The position numbers were made by a program, and so were the translations under genes. Positions 2-13,354 of a stretch of DNA of 64,000 bases are shown here, piece after piece. The stretch spans positions 1,426,001 through 1,490,000 of the forward strand of contig NZ_VTOW01000001.1 in assembly GCF_012184425.1 (NCBI RefSeq), read 5' to 3'. Source of the stretch: Candidatus Manganitrophus noduliformans (lineage in GTDB: Bacteria; Nitrospirota; Nitrospiria; SBBL01; Manganitrophaceae). A model generated the notes under the pieces. It did no database searches, was not told the DNA's origin, and saw only the letters and a list, made by a program, of their open reading frames with translations. Each line of letters starts with the position of its first letter. Positions within the stretch are counted from its first letter, which is position 1.

Positions 2-85
2 GTCGACCGGATCGAACTCATGACGAGAAGCATTGCCGGGGTGGAGGCGCCGGCCGTCGGCCTGAGCCTGACGCCGGAAAAATGA
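2..85 (+). CDS. 3' end of an unidentified protein
   Basis: An open frame enters from the left edge and stops at TGA 83-85, leaving 27 residues that end AVGLSLTPEK. The stop is followed at once by a GAGGAGG ribosome binding site for the next gene, so the two are probably cotranscribed. Nothing in this tail identifies a family, and the rest of the gene lies outside the window. Confidence 0.55.
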   Translation, partial: VDRIELMTRSIAGVEAPAVGLSLTPEK

Positions 86-98
86 GGAGGGTTTTACG

Positions 99-305
99 AT
101 GAACAGATCTATCTCGATCGCCGTTCTGGCCGGGGGTATTTTGCTGATCGTTTTCGGCGTCGGCGTGTCACAGTCGGTCAGCTCCGACATTTCTCGGTTT
201 TTCACCGGCTCACCCACCGAAAAGGCGATCTGGCTGCTGTCCGGCGGCGTTGCCGCGACCGTTGTCGGCCTGCTGGGAGTGTCGCGCGGATCAATGCGAA
301 ACTGA
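99..305 (+). CDS. DUF3185-like small membrane protein
   Basis: This 68-residue protein has two hydrophobic segments (about residues 6-24 and 43-60) around a loop containing SQSVSSDISRFFTGSPTEKAIWLL. The SVSS...FTGxPTxKxIWLL pattern and the closing GVAATVVGLLG helix match the DUF3185 family of short inner-membrane proteins, whose function is not established. A strong GAGGAGG site lies 8 bases before the ATG. It directly follows the partial gene at the window edge. A second short membrane protein with a similar two-helix plan lies at 6722-6940. Confidence 0.75.
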   Translation: MNRSISIAVLAGGILLIVFGVGVSQSVSSDISRFFTGSPTEKAIWLLSGGVAATVVGLLGVSRGSMRN

Positions 306-514
306 AGGGTTGGCCTATTCTTACGGGTACTCGGAGAGAGGGGAGTTCGCTCAGAGGAAAACCAATTGACAATAACGCCTTACATCCTTTGTTTACTTTA
401 TCCCTCCGCTGCATCATTCTTTGAAACCGCCTCAAGGGATCGGGCCGGGATGATTCGGCGGCGTTTTGCGATGAGCAAGAGCGCTCCGCCATAAGCCAGA
501 GAGGTCTTCCGTCG

Positions 515-730
515 ATGATCTGTCCCAAATGTAAATCCCGGCAATACCTGGAATGCGTCTACACCGATCAGGGAACGCGAACGGTCTGGAGATGCTTCGG
601 ATGTGAGCATTCGATCAATCCGGTTTTCCTTCTTAGGAAAGGAGGGCGGGAGAGAAAGGGGATACGCGGGACCCGGCATCTATTATTTTTCTGTTTTATC
701 CATAGGACAAAAGGGTCATCCCATGTCTAA
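515..730 (+). CDS. short zinc-ribbon protein
   Basis: The 71-residue frame opens with CPKCKSRQYLECVY and continues to WRCFGCEHS, so two CxxC pairs about 25 residues apart form a likely zinc ribbon at residues 3-32. The rest is basic and shows no recognisable domain. A GAGAGG motif 9-14 bases upstream supports ATG 515. Its stop at 728-730 overlaps the start of the response regulator at 723, which suggests translational coupling. Similar short zinc ribbons occur at 7404-7652 and in the regulator at 57207-57557. Because the C-terminal half looks non-conserved, the true gene could be shorter or degenerate. Confidence 0.5.
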   Translation: MICPKCKSRQYLECVYTDQGTRTVWRCFGCEHSINPVFLLRKGGRERKGIRGTRHLLFFCFIHRTKGSSHV

Positions 731-1085
731 AAGAATTTTAATCGTAGATGATGATCCGGACAGCCGCACGATTTTGACTTGTATCCTGGAACACGGCGGA
801 TATGAGGTCGGAATTGCAAATGATGGATTCGAGGCGATCAAGGAGATTGGGGATCACCCCCCGGATTTGGTTCTTCTGGATATCATGATGCCGGGTAAGA
901 ATGGTTTTGAGGTCTGCGAGTGGGTCAAGAGCAACCCCAAAATAAGTCATATCTTCATTATCATAATCAGCGCAAAATCGGACCCGATATCTCAAGAGCA
1001 AGCGTCGCATCTTGGGGCAAGTGATTATATAACCAAGCCGATCAACCCTTCCGAGGTTTTACGCCGCGTGAGAAAATTTTTATAG
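723..1085 (+). CDS. single-domain CheY-like response regulator
   Basis: This is a free-standing receiver domain of 120 residues. It has the acidic cluster VDDD at residues 8-11, the phospho-acceptor D53 in LVLLDIMMPGKNG, S83 in the SAK switch position and K105 in ITKPI. There is no output domain, so it probably works by protein contact. An AAAAGGG site precedes ATG 723. An upstream in-frame extension from 603 is rejected because the receiver fold begins exactly at this methionine. It is convergent with the histidine kinase at 1127-2800, an obvious candidate partner, though pairing is inference. Confidence 0.9.
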   Translation: MSKRILIVDDDPDSRTILTCILEHGGYEVGIANDGFEAIKEIGDHPPDLVLLDIMMPGKNGFEVCEWVKSNPKISHIFIIIISAKSDPISQEQASHLGASDYITKPINPSEVLRRVRKFL

Positions 1086-1126
1086 AGAGGCGACCCTGTC
1101 CCTCCGCCGATGCCGCATTCGTATCC

Positions 1127-2800
1127 TCATGGACGCTTTCGCAGGGCATAGGGGAGGAAGATCGTGAAGGTCGATCCCTTCCCGTAAACACTTTCGACCT
1201 CCACGGAACCGTGCAGCAGCCTCGCCATGTTTTTCACAATGGCCAGTCCCAGACCGGTTCCCGGGGTATTCGTCATGCCGGGATCTTCCACCCGGTGGAA
1301 CTCTTCGAAGAGATGGGCGAGATCCGCCTCTTGAATCCCAATGCCGGTATCGACCACGTCTACCCGGACCCGCCTTTGCTCGGGAAGATTCTTGGCGAGA
1401 ACCTGGATCGAACCTTCCCGGGTGTATTTTACCGCGTTTGAGAAGAGGTTTAAAAAGATCTCCTTGAGCTTGGCCGGATCGCTCTTGATCAGGGGGAGGT
1501 CCCGATCGATCTTCAGGAAAAATTCAATCGGTTTTTCCGCGCTCAGAGAGCGCGCGTCCTTCAGCACATCCCGCAAAAGCGCTCCGAGATCGACCTCTTC
1601 CACGGCGACGATCATCTTTGTCGCCTCCAATTTGGAGAGGGTCAGGAGATCATTGATCATCTGGGCCAGCTCTTTTGCATTCACACGCGTTCGAGACAGC
1701 GCCTCTTTGGCCTTCTCCGGAAGCCGCCCGTAGCGTTCTTCTAAAAGGAGTCCCGTATATCCGACGATGACATTAAGCGGCGTTTTCAGCTCGTGGGAGA
1801 CGTGGCTGAGAAAGGTGGTCCTCACCCGTTCTCTCTCTTTTTGTTCGGCCAGATCCGTTTTGAGCCGCCGTTCCCGCTGCTTGAATTCGGTGATCTCGCG
1901 GGCCACCAGGATCCCCTCGGCAATTTTTCTCTTCTTGTCGTAGAGAAACCCTCCCGACAGGCTCAAATGAACGTCGCTCTTCTCCCCGGGACGCCGAATC
2001 ATGTATTCGACGGAGGAGAAAGTTTCTCCCCGGAGCGCCCGTGCCAGGGGAAGCTGATGAGGGGTGGGGATCGCGCCGCCGGCAGTGCGGATATTCAATA
2101 AAACCGGGTCGTCATGAAGCCCGCGGATCGCCTCCTCTTTGTCATGAATGCCGAGAAGCGCCCTTCCTTTTGGATTTACCACGAGGGCCCGGCCGTGCCG
2201 ATCGATCACGTAGATCCCGTCTTCAAGGTTCTCCGAAAACTCCTGAATGGCCTCCTCTCTCGTCTTCTTGAAGGAGATCTTCTTTGAAGCCAGCGCGAGA
2301 TAATGGGTGAAGAGGGCAAGCTCTTCGAGGTCGGTTTCGCTGAAAAACGAAGGAACTCCCGACTTTCCGATGGCGAGCACCCCGAAGTTCTGATTTCCCC
2401 AACGGATGGGGGTGGAGATCAGGGAGGAGGTTTTCGGATCCCATCCCGTCTGCCGGGTGATCTTTTTCCCGGGGTGGGGCGGCCCCTGATGGACGAGGGG
2501 GAACTTCTTCGCGCGGGGAAAGAGTATCTTCCGCCACGCCGCCTCATCCCGGAGAGAACCGATGGTAAGGCGGATCTTCTCTGATGAAGAGGGGGGAGAG
2601 AATTCCAGATAAGCCCCATCCGCCTCAAAGATCTGGAGGACATACTCCAAGAAGGTTTCCGCAAACAGGCGAAAGGAAGAGGAAGGGGAGGCGTTTGAAA
2701 AAGAGACGGAGAAGGCCCGCAGCGCCGAGAGCTGGGCCGCTTGATGATAGTCTATTCCCTTGCGCTGCGGCGGTTTCACTTTTTGTGCGCGTTGCGTCAT
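1127..2800 (-). CDS. GAF-PAS sensor histidine kinase
   Basis: The 557-residue soluble kinase has a GAF-like sensor (about residues 25-175), a PAS domain (about 186-305, DGIYVIDRHGRALVVNPKGR), a HisKA dimerisation helix with phospho-accepting His in HVSHELKTPLN near residue 335, and a HATPase domain with N box NLFSNAVKY, G1 DTGIGI and G2 GTGLGLAIV. No signal peptide or membrane helix is visible, so it should sense a cytosolic cue or a partner protein. It starts 20 bases after the KaiC-like gene on the same strand and is likely cotranscribed with it, which links the two ATP-driven signalling proteins. The convergent CheY-like protein at 723-1085 may receive its phosphate. Confidence 0.93.
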   Translation of the reverse strand: MTQRAQKVKPPQRKGIDYHQAAQLSALRAFSVSFSNASPSSSFRLFAETFLEYVLQIFEADGAYLEFSPPSSSEKIRLTIGSLRDEAAWRKILFPRAKKFPLVHQGPPHPGKKITRQTGWDPKTSSLISTPIRWGNQNFGVLAIGKSGVPSFFSETDLEELALFTHYLALASKKISFKKTREEAIQEFSENLEDGIYVIDRHGRALVVNPKGRALLGIHDKEEAIRGLHDDPVLLNIRTAGGAIPTPHQLPLARALRGETFSSVEYMIRRPGEKSDVHLSLSGGFLYDKKRKIAEGILVAREITEFKQRERRLKTDLAEQKERERVRTTFLSHVSHELKTPLNVIVGYTGLLLEERYGRLPEKAKEALSRTRVNAKELAQMINDLLTLSKLEATKMIVAVEEVDLGALLRDVLKDARSLSAEKPIEFFLKIDRDLPLIKSDPAKLKEIFLNLFSNAVKYTREGSIQVLAKNLPEQRRVRVDVVDTGIGIQEADLAHLFEEFHRVEDPGMTNTPGTGLGLAIVKNMARLLHGSVEVESVYGKGSTFTIFLPYALRKRP

Positions 2801-2820
2801 CGTAGGCTCCGACTGCCCAA

Positions 2821-4278
2821 CTACCTAAACGTAAAGGGAGGCGCGGTCTTTCGGAAATCCATCGGGAGGAGGCGAATTCCCCCCTGCTCGATGACGTACT
2901 CCCTGAGCTCTTTGGAGTGGTTGCTCCCGCGCGACTTGAGGACAAGAAGGACCTTTCCGACTTTGTTATCGATCTGAATATATCGGAGGAGGAGAAGGGT
3001 GTCGACCAGCATCGAGGTCATCTGGCTGGTGATCCGCGGGGTCTCGATCAACTCGGGAATCTCGCTTGTAAAAAGGGAAGAGACCCCCCGGCGTTTGAAA
3101 TAGGAAACCAATGCAAAAAGGGCATCTTTATATTGGAGCGGATTTTGGGCGACCGCTTCATAGGCCGAAACCGAATCGATCAAGACCCGCTGGGCCGAGA
3201 TCGCGCGGGCCCGCTCGATCACCAATCCGACGTGCTGGTTTAAATCAAGTTCCGCCGGGTCGATGGTGACGATCTTCAGACGGCCTTGATCGATCAGAGG
3301 GGAGAGATCAAACCCCAATACCTTGGCGTTCCGGACAATCTGTTCGGCCGTCTCTTCCAGGTTGACGATCAGCCCATTCTCTCCTGCCCGAATTCCTTCT
3401 AGAAGAAACTGAAGCCCCAGGAGCGATTTCCCGGAACCGGTGCTTCCGGCGATCATCACGGCCGTTCCAGGGTAGATGCCCCCCGAGAGCATCTCGTCCA
3501 GCTCAGGAATTCCGAACTTCTCCCTCCGGGCCGGATCGGATTCTTTTATCCCGTTTTCCGACCGAACCTGTCCCGCGATCCGCGGATAGAGGACGATTCC
3601 TTTCCCATCGACGATCTGGAAAGTATGGTTTCCCGAGAGATAGTCCTGGCCGCGGGCCTTGGTGACCCGAAGCCTCCGTAACTCATGTTCCCGGCCATCG
3701 GAGAGGTTGGCCGAGAGGGTGAAGATCGCGTCGACGGAAGAGCGTTCCACGAGGTACTCGCCTCTTTTCGCCGGCTCTGTCTCCAAGGTCATCATCGAGG
3801 TCAGCCCTTCCCGCTCGAAGCTGTTGAGGAGAATGCGGATTATCTTTCGAAATTCTTTCATGTCGGTGACCATGTCCCGGAGCAGCGTGATGCTGTCGAG
3901 GACGATGCGGCCGGCGCCGATTCGGCGAATCTCTTTTTCCAAAGGGCTATTCTCCCCCTGGAGTTGATCGATGGTCGCCTGGACCGAGGCAAGAATCACC
4001 TTGAGTTTTCCCTCCTCTTCCAGTTTTTTCAGGTTCCAGCCGAAGGCGGCGGCGTCGCGATAGAGCTTCGCCGGGTGGACATCGAGTGAGAGGAGGATCC
4101 CCGGCTCGTTCAGGTTCATCGCCCCCTCGTAGAGGAACTGCAAAGCAAGAATCGTTTTCCCTGTCCCGGCCCCTCCTTCCACCAGAACGGAATGCCCCTT
4201 CAGGATTCCCCCTTTTAAAATTCGATCGAGGCCCGAATTTCCCGTGCGAGTCAGGTTCGATCCCTTTTCTCTTGCCAT
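2821..4278 (-). CDS. double-domain KaiC-like RecA-fold ATPase
   Basis: Two KaiC/RadA-type ATPase modules are fused in 485 residues. The first has Walker A GGAGTGKT and Walker B RIVLDS; the second has GSTGSGKS and RVLIDS. In cyanobacterial KaiC each module carries a catalytic Glu pair after strand 2. Here it is kept in the second module (NLEETAEQ) but replaced by LSLDVHP in the first. The phosphorylation loop reads ITSQMTSM: the Ser431 equivalent is kept and the Thr432 equivalent is Met. I chose ATG 4278 because GGGGAGGG precedes it; a longer frame runs to 4320 over the upstream gene. No kaiA or kaiB is present, so a true clock is not implied. Confidence 0.88.
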
Positions 4279-4283
4279 CTTTT

Positions 4284-4637
4284 TTATTTCCCTCCCCGAA
4301 TAACCTGGTTCACGATCCACTGTCTCAAATCGGGCCCTTCATAAGCCTTGATGAATTGGGTAATTTTCTTGTCCATTGACGCTTCCGGCGCGTAACTCCA
4401 GATGGCGGCGCTCTTCTGCCCATTTTTTTTGATGACCCCTTGAAGCACCAAGTCGTCAATCCCCTTTGATACCTTTTTAGGGTCCCGGCCGATTGCCAGG
4501 GAAATGTCACCCGTTTTCCCCAGGAAATGGGGATTATGGTGGAAAAACTTGATCAGCTCAATTTTCACGAACGAGTCGGCGATCTTTGCGATAAATTCCT
4601 CAAGGTCTCTGTCCGCCTTGATTTGCCTCCGCGCCAA
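4284..4637 (-). CDS. winged-helix DNA-binding-like protein
   Basis: This 117-residue basic protein contains a helix-turn-helix-like stretch, [46 protein letters not shown] in pattern, followed by a beta-wing ending SAAIWSYAP. That layout is typical of small archaeal-style winged-helix regulators. The start is TTG 4637, set 6 bases after a clear AGGAGG. It ends 5 bases before the KaiC-like gene, so the three genes wHTH, KaiC-like and histidine kinase form one operon. Its target is unknown; autoregulation through the repeat-bearing upstream region is possible but unproven. Confidence 0.72.
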
Positions 4638-4695
4638 AATGAACCTCCTGGTGAATATAAAGCTTCTCTGAGAAACCGATTAGAAGGGCGGATTT

Positions 4696-4730
4696 GGAAT
4701 GGAATGGAATGGAATGGAATGGAATGGAAT
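4696..4730. repeat. GGAAT pentamer microsatellite, 7 copies
   Basis: Seven perfect GGAAT units run head to tail, followed by GTCCATTCC, whose ATTCC end is the reverse complement of the unit. The tract lies about 60 bases upstream of the TTG start of the winged-helix gene, in its probable promoter zone. Copy-number change by slippage could tune transcription. Confidence 0.95.
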
Positions 4731-4739
4731 GTCCATTCC

Positions 4740-4899
4740 TAACATACCTGCGGCCTAAAAGCAACCGAAGCGGCCGGGTACTGCCCAGATGACCATGCCG
4801 GGGGTGAGCAATGAACATGGCCGTTCTTACATTAGGGGTCGCTCATGAAACACCTACAATTTATCTAAGTTTATTTATATGCTCAATCTATTTTAAAAG
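4740..4899. other. gene-free spacer without recognised content
   Basis: Between the pentamer repeat and the first dyad I see no supported gene. The left half is G+C-rich and the right half turns A+T-rich after about 4850, as expected for a promoter approach. Short open frames here lack ribosome binding sites and family features. Confidence 0.5.
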
Positions 4900-4917
4900 C
4901 TGTGCAGTTTTGACCAT
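4900..4917 (+). promoter_or_regulatory. upstream, weaker copy of the 18-bp dyad
   Basis: CTGTGCAGTTTTGACCAT matches the two promoter dyads at 4972 and 6037 at most positions (pattern CTGnnCAnTnTTGnnCAn). Its centre is 72 bp upstream of the 4972 copy, close to seven helical turns. No -10 hexamer follows at the spacing used by the other copies, so it would be an auxiliary site. Confidence 0.45.
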
Positions 4918-4971
4918 AATACTTTTTTTGTCGCATGCGCGCTTACTCAAATATTCTATTCATTATTCAAA

Positions 4972-5015
4972 CTGAGCAATTTTGATCAGTCTTCCCTCTA
5001 TCTTACAGGCATAAT
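4972..5015 (+). promoter_or_regulatory. dyad-activated promoter for the 5134 gene
   Basis: The dyad CTGAGCAATTTTGATCAG (4972-4989) is followed after exactly 20 bases by CATAAT (5010-5015), a plausible -10 hexamer. If transcription starts about 7 bases later, the dyad centre lies near -41.5, the usual position of class II activators. A TTGATC inside the dyad is 22 bp from the -10, too far for a normal -35, so activator dependence is likely. The same arrangement recurs at 6037-6080. Confidence 0.6.
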
Positions 5016-5133
5016 GAACATCAAGAGAAGGGGGCAGTGTGAATCCGCCGAACGAAGCGTTTCAAGCGTTTTTCCAACCGCTCCAAGGGGGCGGGGTTAC
5101 AAAGCAGTAAAAATTAAAAATAAAGGGGATCAA

Positions 5134-5643
5134 ATGAAGATGAAAAAACTATGGCCGGCATTCGGGCTTATCTTATTCTCGCTGACAATCGCACACGCGG
5201 ATATGCCAAACAGCGGCTCCGAACAGAGACCGGGCCAAACCCATAAAAGTGTGGTCGGCACCGTCAGTAAAGCCACGGAAGAGATGCTCACTTTGCAAAT
5301 CGATGGGGGAACGACAACCCGAAACTTTACCGTTAAGTCCGCCGCCAGAGAGGGCATTGCCGGCCTTAAGAAGGGCGATCGTGTCGTGTTGGAGTTTGAC
5401 GAAGGAAACCAGATCGTCGACATTATCCACATCGGCGCAAAACATCAATTGGTCCATGGCTCGGTGACGGGAGTCGATAAGGAGAGAAGTTTGATCACCA
5501 TCCAATTTAAAGATGGAAAGTCACAATCCTTCAGAATGAAAGAAGCGATGGCCGCCAAAATGAACAACATCAAAAAAGGGGCTGAAGTCACAATGATGGT
5601 CGATCAACATAGCAATTCCGCAATGGACGTTCATGTCGATTAA
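5134..5643 (+). CDS. secreted two-repeat beta-rich protein
   Basis: This 169-residue protein starts MKMKKLWPAFGLILFSL and has a cleavable signal peptide ending near AHA-DM. The mature part is two repeats of about 65 residues: VVGTVSKATEEMLTLQI...GDRVVLEFDEGNQIVDI and VHGSVTGVDKERSLITIQF...GAEVTMMVDQHSNSAMDVHV. Each looks like a small SH3- or OB-like barrel. I do not recognise a named family. ATG 5134 follows AAAGGGGA; a frame open from 5014 is rejected because it begins inside the promoter. A paralogue lacking the signal peptide is encoded at 6968-7372, with the strongest match around VLEFDEGNQI and IHIGxKHQL. Confidence 0.82.
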   Translation: MKMKKLWPAFGLILFSLTIAHADMPNSGSEQRPGQTHKSVVGTVSKATEEMLTLQIDGGTTTRNFTVKSAAREGIAGLKKGDRVVLEFDEGNQIVDIIHIGAKHQLVHGSVTGVDKERSLITIQFKDGKSQSFRMKEAMAAKMNNIKKGAEVTMMVDQHSNSAMDVHVD

Positions 5644-5678
5644 AAGGCGAAGGAACCATCAGTGATGTTGCTCTCCCT

Positions 5679-5716
5679 CGTGGGTCCAATTGGAAAAGAC
5701 AGGGTAAGGACCCACG
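5679..5716. terminator. inverted repeat after the 5134 gene
   Basis: CGTGGGTCC (5679-5687) pairs perfectly with GGACCCACG (5708-5716) across a 20-base loop. It lies 35 bases after the stop of the secreted protein. There is no uridine run, so termination would be weak or the element may instead stabilise the RNA 3' end. Confidence 0.4.
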
Positions 5717-5775
5717 GGGCGTCATCGCTTTTCTCTCGGAACGCGGGAGGGAGAATCAGAACCAAGGAGAATGAA

Positions 5776-5979
5776 ATGTACGAAGCATTTTTGAATTACA
5801 GCTTTCCAATACTGATCATCGTGGCGCTTCTGAATTTTATCTGGGCGTGGATTCCGACTGCAGTGAGGCCTCCTGAAGAGAGCGCGGCCAATCCGGCGTG
5901 GAGATATCTGGAGGGACCCGAAGGGGTTAGACGATCTGTCGCCTCAGAGATCAAGCCGCAGACGCCGATACTTCACTGA
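5776..5979 (+). CDS. small single-pass membrane protein
   Basis: Sixty-seven residues, with one hydrophobic segment near the N-terminus (FPILIIVALLNFIWAWIP) and a polar C-terminal tail. AAGGAGA is placed 5 bases before ATG 5776, which is the best start in a longer open frame. No family is recognised. It belongs to a run of short membrane proteins between 5.1 and 7 kb that share dyad-type promoters. Confidence 0.55.
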   Translation: MYEAFLNYSFPILIIVALLNFIWAWIPTAVRPPEESAANPAWRYLEGPEGVRRSVASEIKPQTPILH

Positions 5980-6036
5980 AGCGCCTTGCTTTATAAACGA
6001 TTCAGAGAAATTCCCTCTTCTCTCTATTTCTCAAAA

Positions 6037-6080
6037 CTGAGCAATATTGACCAGACCTTCCGTTTTTTTATCGTCATAAT
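6037..6080 (+). promoter_or_regulatory. second dyad-activated promoter
   Basis: CTGAGCAATATTGACCAG (6037-6054) is a near-perfect palindrome of the form CTGnnCAAT-ATTGnnCAG. CATAAT (6075-6080) follows after 20 bases, the same spacing as at 4972. Similarity to the first copy continues into the leader (GTGTGAATyC...GAGCGAGCG against GTGTGAATCC...GAACGAAGCG), so a whole promoter-leader unit seems duplicated. The probable first gene is at 6197, leaving a leader of about 110 bases. Confidence 0.65.
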
Positions 6081-6196
6081 CTCATTAAGGCAAGTTGTGT
6101 CCGGTGTGAATTCACTGAGCGAGCGAATACACATCGCCCTCGCGCGGGAGAACGCCGTTTTCAACGCAGAACAGACAACCTGAGGTTTATAAAACG

Positions 6197-6397
6197 ATGA
6201 TCACGACAAAAGAGCTCTTTCAATATCTCTTTATTTTTCTCGTTGTCCTCTGGCCGGTTTGGGTGCTTGGCCTGGTTTTTCTCCGATGGCTGCTCCGGAC
6301 AGCAGGGTCCTTCCTGGGGATCTTCAAAACAGAGAAATTGGCTCCCCGGGAAAAAGGGCTATCAAAACCGGCCGAGCCGTTGATCGGGACCTCTTAG
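6197..6397 (+). CDS. small single-pass membrane protein
   Basis: This 66-residue protein begins MITTKELFQYLFIFLVV and has one long hydrophobic span to about residue 33, then a basic tail. It is the first gene after the dyad promoter at 6037-6080. The ribosome binding site is weak (TGAGGTTTATAAAACG before ATG). No family is recognised. Confidence 0.5.
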   Translation: MITTKELFQYLFIFLVVLWPVWVLGLVFLRWLLRTAGSFLGIFKTEKLAPREKGLSKPAEPLIGTS

Positions 6398-6448
6398 ACG
6401 ATTCCTGTCCGGGTCGAGAGGGGCGATTCCAATTTAAAGTGAACGAAT

Positions 6449-6516
6449 CCATGTCCGAACGCAATAAGACATGGTGCATCGCTATCGGCCGGCGCACCCC
6501 CCGCGCAGGCCGGTAG
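6449..6516. other. two inverted repeats between small genes
   Basis: CCATGTC (6449-6455) pairs with GACATGG (6468-6474), and CTATCGGCC (6482-6490) pairs with GGCCGGTAG (6508-6516) apart from one wobble. Neither has a T tract. They may separate transcripts of the 6197 and 6549 genes. Confidence 0.35.
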
Positions 6517-6548
6517 CGGGCTTAATCGTTTTTCGAAAGGCAAGACTC

Positions 6549-6710
6549 ATGTTATGGACGATCGCTCTGTTTTTAATGGTTCTGTGGCTGTTCGGATGGG
6601 TGAACGGCGCGATGATGGGAGGGTGGTTTATTCATGCCCTGCTCAGCAGCATTATTCAAGGCCGAAGACCGCATCACCCGCGGGACTCTATCAACGATCC
6701 GGTTTTGTAA
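6549..6710 (+). CDS. DUF5670 / Lmo0937-type membrane peptide
   Basis: Fifty-three residues starting MLWTIALFLMVLWLFGWVNG and continuing through GGWFIHALLSSII. The MLWTIxxxLxVLWLxG start and GGxFIHxLL centre match the short Lmo0937/DUF5670 family, common in stress-associated gene sets. ATG 6549 follows CGAAAGGC. Longer upstream frames are not supported. Its company of other two-helix peptides fits an envelope-stress regulon, which is inference. Confidence 0.65.
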   Translation: MLWTIALFLMVLWLFGWVNGAMMGGWFIHALLSSIIQGRRPHHPRDSINDPVL

Positions 6711-6721
6711 GGGCGAAGCGA

Positions 6722-6940
6722 ATGAAAATGGAGAGACTGCTCGCCATTGTCTTGATCACCGTGGGGGTATCGGCCTTTGCTTATCAAGGGATTACTCTCA
6801 CGCGACAGAAGGGGGCCGATCTCAATCTTGAAAAGACATCTGAGAAGACGAGAGCCGTCCCGCCGCCGCCGATCGTGGGGGTCATCGCATTGGCCGGCGG
6901 CATCGTGCTGCTGCTCACGAGAAGCAACAAAGAAGAATAG
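6722..6940 (+). CDS. two-helix small membrane protein
   Basis: Seventy-two residues with a first helix LLAIVLITVGVSAFAYQGI, a polar loop with KTSEKTRAVPPPP and a second helix VGVIALAGGIVLLL. The plan of helix, loop ending in prolines, then a GGIVLLL helix resembles widespread uncharacterised peptides related in layout to DUF3185. It ends 27 bases before the cytosolic paralogue at 6968 and is probably cotranscribed with it. Confidence 0.65.
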   Translation: MKMERLLAIVLITVGVSAFAYQGITLTRQKGADLNLEKTSEKTRAVPPPPIVGVIALAGGIVLLLTRSNKEE

Positions 6941-6967
6941 ACAACAAAGAAGAATAGAAAGGATGAA

Positions 6968-7372
6968 ATGCTGCAGAGTGTGATCGGCACAGTCAGTCAG
7001 GCCTCTGAAGAGACGATCTCTTTGGAAATGGAGGGGGGGACCACCCGTCACTTTACGATTAAAGGCCCTGGAAAATCGGAAGTGATTCTTCATCCGGGCG
7101 ATCGTATTCTGTTGGAGTTTGACGAAGGGAACCAGATCATCGACATGATTCACATCGGTGGAAAACATCAACTGGCGCTGATTCATGGCGAGGTCGTCTG
7201 CGTCGATTCAGACAAGAAGGTCGTCACGCTGAAGCTTAAAAATGGAACGTCGCAATTCTACAAGATGAAAGAAGAAGTCGCCGAAAAGATGACTCATATC
7301 GGAAAAGGGACGGCCATTACCGTTATGGTCGACCAACAGAACCATTCCATCGTTGATGCGCATGTTGCCTGA
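6968..7372 (+). CDS. cytosolic paralogue of the two-repeat protein
   Basis: The 134 residues align with the mature part of the protein at 5134-5643: SVIGTVSQASEETISLEM, LLEFDEGNQIIDMIHIGGK and GTAITVMVDQQNHSIVDAHV. Both internal repeats are kept. There is no signal peptide; the frame starts MLQSVIGTVS with GAAAGGATGAA before ATG 6968. The pair therefore appears to serve the same binding role in two compartments, or one copy has lost export. No named family is recognised. Confidence 0.78.
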   Translation: MLQSVIGTVSQASEETISLEMEGGTTRHFTIKGPGKSEVILHPGDRILLEFDEGNQIIDMIHIGGKHQLALIHGEVVCVDSDKKVVTLKLKNGTSQFYKMKEEVAEKMTHIGKGTAITVMVDQQNHSIVDAHVA

Positions 7373-7403
7373 AAGTCGAAGAGAACATTGAAGGGAGGCC
7401 TTG

Positions 7404-8188: not shown

Positions 8189-10411
8189 TCACGGCAGAAG
8201 ATTTTTCTGCCCGAATCGATCCGGCGGGTCTGGAAAGAGGACCTCCGCCGCCTGGATCAGGAGCGACTCGTATTTTTCGGCGTCGAACCCCCATGACCCG
8301 TCGATGAATCCGAGCGCCCGGGCGCGGTCCGATTTCACGCGCGATTTGGCGTCGGTGATCACATACGAAATGCTCTGTCCGGGGGAGAGACGCACCCCGC
8401 GGCCGGCGAGCTCTTTGGCGACGATCGCCGTGAGGCTGTCTTTTTGGTATTCCGAGGGGGACTTCGAGAGGGTCTTGGCGATCGCCAACTCCCAGAAGGA
8501 GACCCGCCTCGCTTTGAGCCGCTCCCGATAGGCCTCCCGAATCGCTTCGATCTCGGGGAGGAGCGCCTCGTACGCTTCCCGATTTTTCGCCTGAGAGAGG
8601 ATCTCGATCATCTCGGTCTGGGCGGCCCGGATGAACGGCGGGGTGTCGCCGCGGCGGGCTTCGATCCCCCGCAGCTTGACCTCGCCGTTTTGGAAGACGC
8701 CGAGATAGCGGTTGGGGACCCCGATCTCCGGATCGGACTTTGACGGCGGAAAGAGGACCCAGCGATAGACCCCCTCAAAGGCGATCGGGATCTCGCATGC
8801 CTTCGAGATCCGCTCGGCCAGCGCTTCATAGTCGGCCTCCGTCGTTCCCGATTTTTTGATCCAGAGGGAGTCGACGATCGCATGGATCATCTCGAACCCC
8901 TCCGCTTCGACGATTTCCTTCGCCTGAAGTAGCTTCTCCCGGGCATAGGCGGTGATCGCCTCGTGGGCTTCGATCTTCCCGAACCGGGCGTTCTTGTATC
9001 CTTGATAGCCGAAGGTGGTGACCATGCCCCACTTGAGCGCCGACTGCCGCGCGTCATACCGCCCCTTCCACTCCGGATCGGTCGCGGTTTTTTTGAGCCG
9101 CTTGTATTCGGCGCGCTTGGCCAAGAAGGGCTCCAGGAAGCGGGGAATCAATCCGCGGCGCTTTGTGCAGAGATGGTGGCCGATCTCCGGAACGAGATTG
9201 TGGGGGCAGCAAGGGCAGTTGATCGTCTCGGGGGAAATGTTGTAACGGGCCATCGTCGCGGGGTACATCGAGGCGAAGTCGAGCTCCGCGACCGCTTCGT
9301 GAAAGCCGAGCTTGGGGGCGTAGGTCAGCCCTCCTTTGTCGGTCAGCAATAGCTGGTCGGCGCTCTTGAACGCCTCGCTCTCCTGCTTTCGCCAGGGGAT
9401 CAGAATCCCGTCCTCAAATGCCAGCGCCATCTGCATCGAGGTGATTCCGGTGCCGGTGGTGGTCCGCGCCATCTGCTGGACCGGGATCCGCGAGAGGCGG
9501 GCGAACTCAAAGAGCCCTTCGAGCTCGGTCTGATCGACCAAGAAAGAGTTATGCAGATCGATGTGCCAGCGGCCGAGGAGCAGGTGCGCTTGCGCCTGGT
9601 GGACGACTTGGCCGTAGGTGAAGTAGGAGCGCTCGCGCCGGGTGACCACCCCCGTATCGGGCTCTCGGTTGAGCAGAAGGGGGAAGCGCTTCTTTTTGGC
9701 CATCGCCATTAGCTGGGGGAGGAGATACGGATCGCCCCATTCGGAGAGAATCAGGTCGGGATCGTGCCGCAGCAGCAGCCGGTCGAACCGGTCGATCAGC
9801 CCCGCTTCGTCGTCCGCTTCCAAGCAGGAGGTCCGCCCGTCGATCGTGACCTCCAGCCGCCGGGGACCGGTGTGATCGGGGCGGAGGCTTCCCCCTTCCA
9901 TCCGAAGGATCAGGGTCGTCAAGGGGGGGGTGGTGTAATCGGTCCGCCAGATCGAATCGAGTAAGCCGACCGTTTGAATGGTCCCGGAGGGATCGACCTC
10001 CACCTCGCAAAAGGCGAGCGGGAAGCGCTTGCGCTCGAAGAAATAGAGCTGCGGGAGGGAGAGATCGCAGTTGTAGAGCGAGATTCCGCTCCCTTCCGGT
10101 TTGACGGCGGCGGAGGCGCACCAGCGGACCACCTTCGTAAAGTGGATTGGATTGAAAAGTTTTACCCGTGTGACCGGGATCGTCTTCCCCGAGTAGAACT
10201 CAATCCCCACGGCGCGGGTGACCTCCATCGGCAGGTTCAAGCGCGAGAGAAAGGTCAGAAGCGGGCGGACAGAGGCGGGAGGGCCGCCGATGTAGAAAGC
10301 GGGGGAGAAGGGATCGAGCAGCCGGTGCTTTCTCCCTTGCGCGTCGATGATCCAGACCCGCATCCCGCCGTCGACCGCGTAGACATCAAAGATCCAGCCG
10401 GTGATCTTCAT
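8189..10411 (-). CDS. family B DNA polymerase (PolB2-like)
   Basis: The 740-residue protein keeps the polymerase signatures of family B: motif A ELDFASMYP (D378), motif B RQSALKWGMVTTFG (K460) and motif C IVDSLWI (D514), where the usual DTD has lost its first Asp but keeps the second, metal-binding one. A Cys/His cluster (about 399-415) between motifs A and B may bind zinc. The exonuclease region looks degenerate: the Exo I DxE position reads LILRMEG (about 167-173). It is the last gene of the lexA operon, overlapping its neighbour by 4 bases, so it is probably a damage-induced polymerase, in the role that imuB and dnaE2 play elsewhere. The role is inference. Confidence 0.88.
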   Translation of the reverse strand: MKITGWIFDVYAVDGGMRVWIIDAQGRKHRLLDPFSPAFYIGGPPASVRPLLTFLSRLNLPMEVTRAVGIEFYSGKTIPVTRVKLFNPIHFTKVVRWCASAAVKPEGSGISLYNCDLSLPQLYFFERKRFPLAFCEVEVDPSGTIQTVGLLDSIWRTDYTTPPLTTLILRMEGGSLRPDHTGPRRLEVTIDGRTSCLEADDEAGLIDRFDRLLLRHDPDLILSEWGDPYLLPQLMAMAKKKRFPLLLNREPDTGVVTRRERSYFTYGQVVHQAQAHLLLGRWHIDLHNSFLVDQTELEGLFEFARLSRIPVQQMARTTTGTGITSMQMALAFEDGILIPWRKQESEAFKSADQLLLTDKGGLTYAPKLGFHEAVAELDFASMYPATMARYNISPETINCPCCPHNLVPEIGHHLCTKRRGLIPRFLEPFLAKRAEYKRLKKTATDPEWKGRYDARQSALKWGMVTTFGYQGYKNARFGKIEAHEAITAYAREKLLQAKEIVEAEGFEMIHAIVDSLWIKKSGTTEADYEALAERISKACEIPIAFEGVYRWVLFPPSKSDPEIGVPNRYLGVFQNGEVKLRGIEARRGDTPPFIRAAQTEMIEILSQAKNREAYEALLPEIEAIREAYRERLKARRVSFWELAIAKTLSKSPSEYQKDSLTAIVAKELAGRGVRLSPGQSISYVITDAKSRVKSDRARALGFIDGSWGFDAEKYESLLIQAAEVLFPDPPDRFGQKNLLP

Positions 10412-10743
10412 CGACCCTCCTTTGTCTTCGACGAAGGGAGAGGAGGCCTCTGGCTTTCGTCGAATGTGCCCTTTCTATTCAGAAATACTTCCAGGTGGGA
10501 GACCCGCGCTTCGAGCAGCGCATTTTTTTTGTACGACTCGATCAACATCGCCACGATCATCGCTTCAAACGGCGAGCTCTTCGAAGCGTAGCTGCCGGAA
10601 GCGACATGGTATTTCGCCGCGCGAAAAAGCGCGTCGAAATATTGCTGGTCCTCCTTGCGCAACGCCCGGTGAAACGACTGCCAAGCGCTCCGTTCCTGCT
10701 CGATCAACTGCGTGAAGGTGGAGAGGGTGCGGCCCATCAACAC
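10408..10743 (-). CDS. small helical protein of the lexA-polB operon
   Basis: This 111-residue protein is mostly helical and charged (LIEQERSAWQSFHRALRKEDQQYFDALF; KNALLEARVSHLEVFL). It overlaps the RecA-like gene by 7 bases and the polymerase by 4, so all are translated together. Met3 at 10737 is an alternative start. I recognise no family. Its fixed place between a RecA-like ATPase and a polymerase suggests a small accessory or bridging subunit. Confidence 0.75.
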   Translation of the reverse strand: MLMGRTLSTFTQLIEQERSAWQSFHRALRKEDQQYFDALFRAAKYHVASGSYASKSSPFEAMIVAMLIESYKKNALLEARVSHLEVFLNRKGTFDESQRPPLPSSKTKEGR

Positions 10744-11381
10744 CCCCCGGTTCGTTGCGGCGGACGTTTTCCAATAGCGAGCGTTTCTTCGCGGATGAGG
10801 ATCGATTGCGCATCGGTGCGGACGGAGAAGAGCCGGTCCGACGCGTTGCGCACCATTGAAAGGAGCGACGCCGACTTGTGCGAAGGCGGGGGAGGGGAGG
10901 TCAGCACCACGATCCAGGTTCCTTCCCGGGCCTGTCGCGCCAGGGTTGATACGGCGTGTGAGAGGAGCGTTTTTCTCTCGGTGAAAGAGACCGCTTCATC
11001 ATAAAAGGTGGCGAGCGGCTCCGCCAGCAGCACCAGGCGGGGACGGTGCCGCGCGATTCCAATGCCGAGCTGCCGGGTGATGAGGGAGGTCATCTGATGG
11101 CAGGTGGCGGCGCGGGAGATAAAAATCGACGAGAGAAAAAGGCGCGGATCGTGTCCGATCCGCTTCGCCAGATGTGTGATCGGATAAGGGTTAAAGCAGT
11201 TGTCCCCATCGAGAAAGAGGACCCGCTCCGACTGGGCCAACCGCCAGCCGATCATTTCCGAAGCGAGCGGCCGGAGCGCGGCATCGCCGCAAAAAAAGAT
11301 CACCCCGCCCGGCATGCCGGAGATCAGGGAGACCGGCGGTCCGGAGAAGAGGGGGGCGTCGATTTTGTAGGTCGTGTCCAC
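10737..11381 (-). CDS. RecA/ImuA-like protein with degenerate P-loop
   Basis: The 214 residues follow the RecA-like core order: strand VIFFCGDAALRPLASEM at the Walker A position, RVLFLDGDNCFNPYP after it, and RPRLVLLAEPL at Walker B. The Walker A lacks the GKT/GKS signature, so ATP hydrolysis is doubtful. Position right after lexA and size resemble ImuA, the RecA-like partner in bacterial mutasome cassettes. It is 21 bases downstream of lexA and coupled to the next gene. Homology to ImuA is an inference from layout and weak motifs. Confidence 0.65.
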   Translation of the reverse strand: MDTTYKIDAPLFSGPPVSLISGMPGGVIFFCGDAALRPLASEMIGWRLAQSERVLFLDGDNCFNPYPITHLAKRIGHDPRLFLSSIFISRAATCHQMTSLITRQLGIGIARHRPRLVLLAEPLATFYDEAVSFTERKTLLSHAVSTLARQAREGTWIVVLTSPPPPSHKSASLLSMVRNASDRLFSVRTDAQSILIREETLAIGKRPPQRTGGC

Positions 11382-11402
11382 AAGCGTGCTCCTCTTCTAC
11401 GG

Positions 11403-12035
11403 TCAAACGACCGGCCGAATGAGACTGACGACCTTCCCGAGAATTTGAAAGGAGGCGTCTTTCTCGGTAATGACGATCGGATCAAAGTCAGTGTTCTCGG
11501 GCTGGAGGATCAGGTTTTTCTTTTTCTTGATCAGCCGCTTCACCGTCGCTTCCCCTTCGACCATCGCGACGACGATCTCGCCGGAATCGGCATCGGCCTG
11601 CCGCTTGACCAGGACCAGATCCCCATCCAAGATTCCCGCGTCGCGCATGCTCTCCCCTTTGACCTTCAGAAGAAACGCTTCCCTTCCTCGAACGAGCGAA
11701 GGATCGACCGTCAGATGTCCGAGTAAATTCTCCTCGGCCAGAATCGGCTGCCCGGCGGCGACCCGTCCCAAGATTGGGATCGCCCGGCCGGCGCTCTTTG
11801 ATTGGACGGCCCTCGCTGTCTGCGATTGCGAGATCACTTCCAGCGCCCGGGCTCCTTGGCCTTTTCGCAGGTGTCCTTTGCGAATCAGCGCGGCGACATG
11901 CTTGAAAGCGCCCCGCGTCCCCACCATCCCGAAGTGGCCTGCGATTTCACGCAAGGAAGGGGGGTAGCCTTTCTGCTCCACCGTTTGCTGGATGAAGGTG
12001 AGGATTTCTTGTTGCCGTGCCGTGATGGTATCCAT
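11403..12035 (-). CDS. lexA: LexA repressor
   Basis: All parts of LexA are present in 210 residues: an N-terminal winged helix (residues 1-65, QQEILTFIQQ...PSLREIAGHFGM), the autocleavage site Ala94-Gly95 in RVAAGQPI, catalytic Ser129 in KGESMRDAGI and Lys166 in ATVKRL. It represses SOS genes and self-cleaves on RecA filaments. It heads an operon with a RecA-like protein and a family B polymerase. A palindrome spans its start codon (12025-12046) and its promoter leaves almost no leader, so strong autoregulation is expected. Confidence 0.96.
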   Translation of the reverse strand: MDTITARQQEILTFIQQTVEQKGYPPSLREIAGHFGMVGTRGAFKHVAALIRKGHLRKGQGARALEVISQSQTARAVQSKSAGRAIPILGRVAAGQPILAEENLLGHLTVDPSLVRGREAFLLKVKGESMRDAGILDGDLVLVKRQADADSGEIVVAMVEGEATVKRLIKKKKNLILQPENTDFDPIVITEKDASFQILGKVVSLIRPVV

Positions 12036-12046
12036 ATGAATACCAT
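12025..12046. promoter_or_regulatory. lexA: candidate LexA operator palindrome
   Basis: The arms ATGGTATCCAT (12025-12035) and ATGAATACCAT (12036-12046) are inverted copies with one mismatched pair. The element begins at the -10 hexamer and includes the lexA start codon, so a bound dimer would block initiation. It is unlike the E. coli CTGT-N8-ACAG box; LexA sites vary among phyla, so assignment rests on position and symmetry. Confidence 0.65.
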
Positions 12047-12074
12047 TCTAGCCGAAGGGATTGGAAAGTGTCAA
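12045..12074 (-). promoter_or_regulatory. lexA: lexA operon promoter
   Basis: On the minus strand TTGACA (12069-12074) and TAGAAT (12045-12050) are 18 bp apart. The ATG follows 9 bases after the -10, so the transcript should begin within a few bases of it. From here to 12268 I see no further gene or element. Confidence 0.72.
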
Positions 12075-12372: not shown

Positions 12373-12460
12373 CCTTTGTTCAGAGCAAACCTGTCGAAAG
12401 ACGGGGACGCAGAGCAACGGGGCTAAAGCTGTAAAGCCATGCCCGCCGAGCCGCCAAAGG
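12373..12460 (+). promoter_or_regulatory. GEMM-I riboswitch, A20 (cGAMP-type) variant
   Basis: The core shows GAGCAAACC, a GAAA tetraloop hairpin (CTGTCGAAAGACGGG), GACGCAGAGC and a second stem GGGC...GCCC, the order of cyclic dinucleotide GEMM-I aptamers. P1 can form between CCTTTG (12373-12378) and CAAAGG (12455-12460). At the position equal to G20 of the Vibrio Vc2 aptamer the sequence CAGAGC has A (12384). G20A is known to shift recognition towards 3',3'-cGAMP, as in Geobacter GEMM-Ib RNAs. The P1 3' arm is also part of the terminator stem, so ligand binding should turn the gene on. Confidence 0.85.
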
Positions 12461-12505: not shown

Positions 12506-13354
12506 ATGCGAAATCTGTCAAAAAGACAAAACATTCCCCGGGCGCTTTGTCTGGTTCTCTTATTCTTTTTTTGTAAGACCTCTCCCGCTTTTGCAGGCGA
12601 TGCAATCTTATCCTGGACTCCCAACACAGATTCGGATCTGGCCGGATACAAGGTCTATTACGGAACCGTCTCCGGGCGTTACGGAACACCGATCACGGTC
12701 GGCAATCAGACCGCGTACACGGTCACCGGCCTTGGGCTGGGAACCTACTACTTCGTCCTCACCGCCTATGACGTTGCAGGAAACGAGAGTGCTTTTTCGA
12801 ACGAGATCAGTAAAACGTTTTTTGATACGTCTGCTCCCGTCTCCGGTAACACCCCACCGGAGGATGCTCAACCCTCGGATACGACGCCTCCGGCGGATGT
12901 TCAACATTTCTCTGCGGTTCCCGGAGACCGGGAGATCACGCTGCAATGGATCAACCCGCCGGACGTTGATTTCGCGGGGGTTCTCATCCGCTATCGGACC
13001 GATCGCTATCCGAGCGACCTGAACGACGGCGAACTTCTCGGAGATTTCACGGGAGAACCCAATCAGAGCATGAGCGTAACTCACTCAAGCCTGGAGAACG
13101 GCGTCACCTACTACTATGCCGCCGCTTCCTACGATCTCCATGAGAATCGTCAATCTACCGCCCACGCTTCCGCTTCTCCCTTTTCTTTAATCAGTCAAAT
13201 CGACGACGGACAAAATCAGGCGGCCGCCGGCGGGGGAGGTTGTGTAATGCGCTTTCCGCAGGAGGAAAATCTTCCCGGCCCCGCGCAAGCGGCCGAAATA
13301 CCGCTCTTGCTGGGTATTTTCCTCTTCATGTTTCTGAAAAGGAGATTCAGATGA
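12506..13354 (+). CDS. fibronectin type III surface protein
   Basis: The 282 residues contain a signal peptide (cleaved near PAFAG), two fibronectin type III domains (about 35-110, LSWTPNTDSDLAGYKVYYG; about 130-225, ITLQWINPPDVDFAGVLIRY) and a C-terminal tail of GGGGCV, a hydrophobic helix and KRRFR. That tail resembles Gram-negative C-terminal sorting signals. GGGAGA precedes ATG 12506, which lies 21 bases after the riboswitch terminator. Cyclic dinucleotide control suggests a role in attachment or in cell-surface electron-transfer structures; that role is inferred. Confidence 0.85.
   Translation: MRNLSKRQNIPRALCLVLLFFFCKTSPAFAGDAILSWTPNTDSDLAGYKVYYGTVSGRYGTPITVGNQTAYTVTGLGLGTYYFVLTAYDVAGNESAFSNEISKTFFDTSAPVSGNTPPEDAQPSDTTPPADVQHFSAVPGDREITLQWINPPDVDFAGVLIRYRTDRYPSDLNDGELLGDFTGEPNQSMSVTHSSLENGVTYYYAAASYDLHENRQSTAHASASPFSLISQIDDGQNQAAAGGGGCVMRFPQEENLPGPAQAAEIPLLLGIFLFMFLKRRFR

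Follow-up and report, generated by a model that had tools for sequence, protein, structure and literature searches.

The stretch of DNA analysed here (the window) comprises 64,000 nucleotides of Candidatus Manganitrophus noduliformans (contig NZ_VTOW01000001.1, positions 1,426,001 to 1,490,000) and carries four consecutive genes on its minus strand, which encode a LexA repressor, a RecA-fold protein (iRadA), a small helical subunit (PPB2) and a family-B DNA polymerase (PolB2). We consider it very probable that they form a LexA-controlled bacterial PolB2 mutasome operon for translesion synthesis. The initial annotation had recognized lexA, a RecA-like gene, a gene for a small protein and a polB gene in tight coupling, and this description holds: all four genes are present on the minus strand, lexA and iRadA are separated by 21 nt, and overlaps of 1 nt (iRadA-PPB2) and 4 nt (PPB2-PolB2) follow. 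The features are, in window coordinates:

12045 to 12074, minus strand: sigma-70-type promoter, TTGACA-18-TAGAAT (11 of 12 positions in a consensus scan)
12027 to 12044, strand not applicable: LexA-type operator GGTATTCATATGGATACC, a near-perfect palindrome kept in relatives
11403 to 12035, minus strand: lexA, 210 aa (TIGR00498, PF01726, PF00717)
10737 to 11381, minus strand: iRadA, RadA/Rad51 fold, 214 aa, GTG start (Pfam Rad51, profile matches, AlphaFold2, Foldseek)
10408 to 10737, minus strand: PPB2, small helical subunit of the arCOG07300 type, 109 aa, N-terminus MGRT (alignment, AlphaFold2)
8189 to 10411, minus strand: PolB2, family-B DNA polymerase, 740 aa (PF00136, NF004416, PDB match, column counts)

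Gene order and coupling, family membership, and the operator and promoter with their conservation are established by sequence comparison. At this level the locus is a PolB2-iRadA-PPB2 mutasome operon under its own LexA, and its assignment to PolB2 draws on motifs, partners and gene order. The system is not new. A predicted lexA-iRadA-arCOG07300-polB2 operon of Leptospirillum ferriphilum (LFML04_0990-0993), made up of the same four genes, was reported with a deduced role in DNA damage (Makarova et al., 2014; PMC4104785), and the complex of PolB2, iRadA and a PPB2 trimer was modelled in 2025, in a set of 40 that is not known to include the one of the window (Timinskas et al., 2025; PMC11791011). 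The L. ferriphilum locus belongs to another member of the Nitrospirota and was compared by its description only; in the part of that description available, no operator is mentioned, unlike in the window. All sequence-testable features of the PolB2 mutasome given in the accessible text of Timinskas et al. recur here: the order iRadA-PPB2-PolB2, an ATPase-dead RadA, the MGRT arm, the DK motif, IVD in motif C (IxD for DxD), a degenerate exonuclease and lexA as bacterial neighbour. The same text reports an enrichment of lexA; operator analysis, repressor swap and partner loss were not found in it. The arrangement is thus in the literature in outline, and operator conservation, SOS boxes in cassettes lacking lexA, repressor swap and partner loss have not been described as far as our limited literature searches show.

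The LexA protein scores 210.5 bits against TIGR00498 (cut-off 111, E 1.8e-62), also matches PF01726 and PF00717, and has the Ala-Gly bond (VAAG) as well as the Ser (GESM) and Lys (ATVKR) of the S24 protease; by these residues it is expected to be a self-cleaving S24-type repressor. The RecA-like protein has no ImuA match, and sequence and model identify it as an ATPase-dead RadA/Rad51 paralogue. It matches Pfam Rad51 weakly but above the cut-off (25.1 bits against 22), the alignment of its family (29 relatives) matches RadA, RecA and DMC1 when searched against the PDB, and its AlphaFold2 model (pLDDT 88) has RAD51 structures as best Foldseek hits (E 7e-12). The 214 residues contain neither a GxxxxGK[ST] Walker A motif nor an N-terminal domain. 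The small protein is likewise present; of its proposed form, 111 aa from a GTG at 10743, we prefer the shorter one of 109 aa from the ATG at 10737, because the MGR that it begins with is invariant in relatives. Across 32 aligned PPB2 sequences, MGR and L26-R27 are invariant and T4 is kept in more than 90%, and the AlphaFold2 model is all helical (pLDDT 89).

PolB2 matches PF00136 (E 3e-35), reaches 401 bits against NCBIfam NF004416, which is below the cut-off of 516, and has a DNA polymerase, 5mdn, as its best match in a sequence search of solved structures. Its exonuclease is degenerate: with motifs placed by eye, the Exo I columns are variable (E/R/D/S/T), the Exo III Asp is Ala or Ser in most sequences, and the Exo II Asp is kept, a pattern by which the 3'-5' exonuclease appears inactivated. 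Motif A (DFASMYP) is intact and the D(K/R) motif before the palm reads LTDKGG, with K, R or Q following the Asp among 81 family members. The C-terminus, QKNLLP (QLELLP in genome G004), is a candidate clamp-binding motif.

Motif C of PolB2 reads IVD instead of DTD, its first Asp being replaced by Ile, and motif B lacks the usual Asn. Such changes could point to a protein without catalytic activity that acts as a scaffold or regulates other polymerases or RecA filaments, in line with an early reading of PolB2 (PMC4104785). We consider this unlikely, given that the motif A Asp, the second motif C Asp and the Asp of the DK motif are invariant in all 81 homologues, the motif B Lys is kept in 80 of them, and robust polymerisation is known from Sulfolobus Dpo2, which carries a substitution of the same kind (PMC8764526). 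Archaeal PolB2 (Dpo2) with this IxD-type motif C is an active, exonuclease-free extender (PMC8764526; PMC7390963; PMC11791011). The Dpo2 of Sulfolobus islandicus has lost its exonuclease, kept its polymerase, is damage-inducible and acts as a translesion extender (Feng et al., 2020, 2022; PMC7390963, PMC8764526); it belongs to the same polymerase group as the window protein, but is archaeal and not controlled by LexA. Bacterial PolB2 proteins have been suggested as possible extenders by the same authors (PMC8764526).

A match was found in 17 of the 58 genomes searched from the genus, order and class (15 of the 47 of good quality). In a scan of 84,980 species genomes, 247 relatives were confirmed, and the best 80 of these 247, which were fetched, come from Nitrospirota, Bacteroidota, Ignavibacteriota, Acidobacteria, Armatimonadetes, Myxococcota and others. 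The survey of gene order that the initial annotation had suggested bears out its conservation: among 63 loci with at least 1.8 kb of upstream sequence, a set that includes several close relatives and so counts non-independent events, iRadA, PPB2 and PolB2 follow each other on one strand in 60, in addition to the window, and an S24-type repressor leads on the same strand in 47 (LexA in 34, another S24 protein in 13). The PolB2 of a same-genus record, Candidatus Manganitrophus sp. GAC4, is 99% identical in its best segment. At one locus (L043:6838-7056) a 72-aa cysteine-containing protein without a Pfam match is encoded between lexA and iRadA, and a similar reading frame occupies the same position at L042. 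A phage contig (L138; IMG/VR UViG_3300037225_001304, 40-7379) carries adjacent PPB2 and PolB2 genes along with genes for a capsid/protease, an endolysin and an SU10-type adaptor, and by sequence represents a phage-borne PolB2 pair; no iRadA was seen on the stretch examined.

The proposed LexA-type palindrome is present ahead of the whole operon. In the window, 10 of 11 pairs are complementary; 8 of 9 pairs were reached in 1.3% of shuffles of a 120-bp region, and the palindrome is convincing through its conservation in relatives rather than through this p-value. It abuts the strong promoter and extends over both the start codon of lexA and the predicted start of transcription, with the -10 element ending 9 nt before the ATG. 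From this position, lexA is probably transcribed without a leader or with hardly any. Relatives in the genus and order have a TTGACA and a -10-like hexamer at much the same distance. The palindrome is kept among relatives through compensating changes in the arms: GGTATTCATATGGATACC, GGTAGACATATGCCTACC, GGTAGTCATATGACTACC, GGTGTCCATTTGGACACC, GGTGAACATTTGTTCACC and GGTATACATTTGTATACC. Both arms co-vary at the same place in close relatives, distant relatives have the palindrome slightly upstream of the start, and retention through compensating changes extends over Nitrospirota and Bacteroidota. At the 34 LexA-led loci, the motif GGTRNNCATWTGNNYACC (at most 2 mismatches) has 23 sites between -70 and +10 relative to the first start as assigned, and 3 sites in the remainder of the 352 kb. 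Operator distances are approximate, as automatic assignment gave incorrect or questionable starts at some loci, L043 and L109 among them. Palindromes resembling GGTATGTTAACATACC stand at the operator place in Myxococcota. A self-cleaving type of LexA and a palindromic box over the promoter are, at the level of sequence, features of a LexA/SOS regulon.

In Nitrospira cassettes, an XRE-type S24 repressor occupies the first slot instead of LexA, and sites resembling GTAACATTTTGTGAC or GTGACAAATTTGTCAC lie at the operator place, behind a TTGACA. By sequence, LexA has here been replaced by an XRE-S24 repressor with its own palindrome, the slot and promoter layout being kept while regulator and site differ. 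An exact CGAACN4GTTCG stands 7 to 48 bases upstream of iRadA, by its assigned start, in three cassettes without a local repressor (L074, L079 and L137); we estimate a chance expectation of about 0.006 in 15 stretches of 440 bases. This motif is the Gram-positive type of SOS box.

These data also bear on whether the operator might autoregulate lexA only, with lexA a passenger and the polymerase genes expressed constitutively or from an internal promoter. Many LexA paralogues in the genome and 15 of the 63 cassettes without an adjacent repressor would suit such an arrangement. We nevertheless think it quite unlikely: the gap of 21 nt and the overlapping genes argue for a single unit, the only promoter-like site found on the operon strand lies ahead of lexA, and a repressor comes first in 47 of 63 loci. 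Cassettes lacking lexA can have an SOS box directly before iRadA, and Nitrospira keeps another S24 repressor in the LexA slot.

Loss of the partners was seen in one genome (G004, 99% complete), which has kept the operator, lexA and a full-length PolB2. There is no iRadA anywhere in this genome and no PPB2 in the cassette, the place at which PPB2 was looked for, as opposed to genome-wide. Its PolB2 has five changes at the 97 most conserved columns, among them motif B Lys to Arg, which is the most of 81 sequences (the next have four), although the columns were chosen without the G004 sequence, which slightly favours this outcome; the changes hint at relaxed constraint. Fragments or frameshifts of PolB2 occur in G000 (L048), G003, G014, G052 and G057. 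In the L048 case, the genome of the window has another copy of the cassette, which has decayed (L048:5909-6252; G000 C1:1063964-1064338): a LexA fragment is followed directly by PolB2 from residue 589 on.

The suggestion of the initial annotation, that a family-B polymerase here serves an alternative, SOS-type system of translesion synthesis, is well supported by the order in 60 of 63 loci, the conserved LexA-type operator and the homology to archaeal PolB2. In undamaged cells, LexA would occupy the palindrome that lies across the promoter and the start of lexA, and would repress its own gene together with the three genes behind it. By analogy with the LexA family, RecA activated on single-stranded DNA would trigger self-cleavage of LexA, and the operon would be transcribed as one unit. 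PolB2, dead in proofreading with its polymerase site kept, would then assemble with iRadA and PPB2, in a 1:1:3 ratio, into a translesion polymerase; following the models in PMC11791011, the ATPase-dead iRadA may dock on PolB2 and the MGRT arm of a helical PPB2 trimer may enter the PolB2-iRadA cleft. From S. islandicus Dpo2 (PMC8764526), we infer that the complex polymerises without proofreading and would mainly extend primer ends past lesions after insertion by a different enzyme, perhaps the genome's single DinB. By the same analogies, the operon would be induced by damage and serve in lesion bypass, and resynthesised LexA would shut it off again. A parallel with E. coli Pol V (UmuD'2C-RecA), drawn in PMC11791011, lies in the combination of a polymerase, a RecA-fold partner and a small oligomeric partner; Pol V differs in its Y-family polymerase, active RecA and unrelated small subunit.

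Several observations weigh against this interpretation. Our literature searches turned up no data on expression, binding or enzyme activity, either for this organism or for any bacterial PolB2. A Foldseek search with the PPB2 model gave no significant PDB match, and the published sigma-factor-like fold was not reproduced. Fifteen of the 63 cassettes consist of iRadA-PPB2-PolB2 without an S24 repressor ahead, and most of these showed no box. Finally, no recognisable box of any type tried was found at recA or dinB, and the link to the general SOS response is therefore indirect.

The operon could also serve an alternative start or restart of replication instead of lesion bypass, as proposed for archaea from arORC2 neighbours (PMC4104785). 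This is very unlikely for the bacterial copies, which sit with LexA and SOS boxes, and S. islandicus dpo2 is required for damage-induced mutagenesis, as stated in PMC8764526. Descent from an imuA-imuB-dnaE2 mutasome with its polymerase replaced is hardly credible: the layout (lexA, RecA-like protein, small partner, polymerase) and probably the use are the same, and the genome has neither ImuB nor DnaE2, but iRadA has no ImuA family match at E 1 and profiles with RadA/Rad51, the operon contains no Y-family protein, and PPB2 matches no ImuB model. The absence of imuB noted earlier is thus confirmed, the genome having one Y-family gene (DinB-like) and one DnaE, and on these grounds, together with the lack of an ImuA match, placement in the imu system was rejected. 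Both are damage-repressor-controlled operons with a RecA-like protein and a translesion polymerase; the imu cassette has Y- and C-family proteins where the window has a B-family polymerase, and no sequence relation was detected. By sequence, the PolB2 operon is a cassette of similar role and different family.

Besides its single RecA, DnaE and DinB-like polymerase, the genome has four LexA genes, and a LexA tree does not resolve the cassette LexA from its three paralogues. In pattern searches of the 5.17 Mb genome, which are a narrow test, the cassette operator is the only site of its type with 0-1 mismatches. Beyond it, the searches gave the lexA2 box, with 3 mismatches, and two sites of poor palindromic form with 2 mismatches, fewer than a reversed-pattern control. 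Among the SOS boxes of E. coli, more than 3 differences in 18 bases would be common. For the LexA at C1:1288629, too, the operator was found at its own gene only. A single operator site fits a private regulon for the cassette.

Two other lexA genes are each followed by a gene for a Hel308-like helicase of about 910 aa (L052:7693-11097, G000 C2; L053:7726-11126, G000 C4; relatives at L226-L229), and in the one scanned, the C-terminus matches an OmpR-type winged helix weakly. Of the genomes searched, 5 of the 6 from the genus have this lexA-helicase pair, which was found in none of the other 25; palindromes are present at the lexA promoters, and a literature search found no report of the pair. 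We tentatively raise the possibility, which we hold to be less probable than not, that the SOS response of this organism is split into private modules: three of the four LexA paralogues would lead their own repair operons (the PolB2 mutasome and two with Hel308-like helicases). Each of these promoters would carry a palindrome of its own, unlike the other two, and recA and dinB would be without a recognisable box.

Elsewhere in the window, a c-di-GMP-I riboswitch (12374-12458, plus strand, 68 bits) lies directly upstream of a gene for a fibronectin type III protein (12506-13354), and this pair is divergent from the lexA operon. The products of neighbouring reading frames at 5014-5643 and 6968-7372 visibly resemble each other (VIGTVSQASEE... 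and VVGTVSKATEE...) and appear to represent a duplicated family.

As far as we found, knowledge of bacterial PolB2 mutasomes had hitherto come from gene neighbourhoods and models alone. With the conserved operators, a specific regulatory claim can be made, namely which 18 base pairs LexA should bind, and damage induction of the operon would be expected in Nitrospirota and Bacteroidota, and also in Nitrospira, where the repressor is a different one. The genome that has PolB2 and lacks iRadA offers a natural test of the need for partners. If the private modules proposed above were real, polymerase, repressor and operator would move together as one unit open to exchange, an idea suggested by the XRE-S24 swap in Nitrospira.

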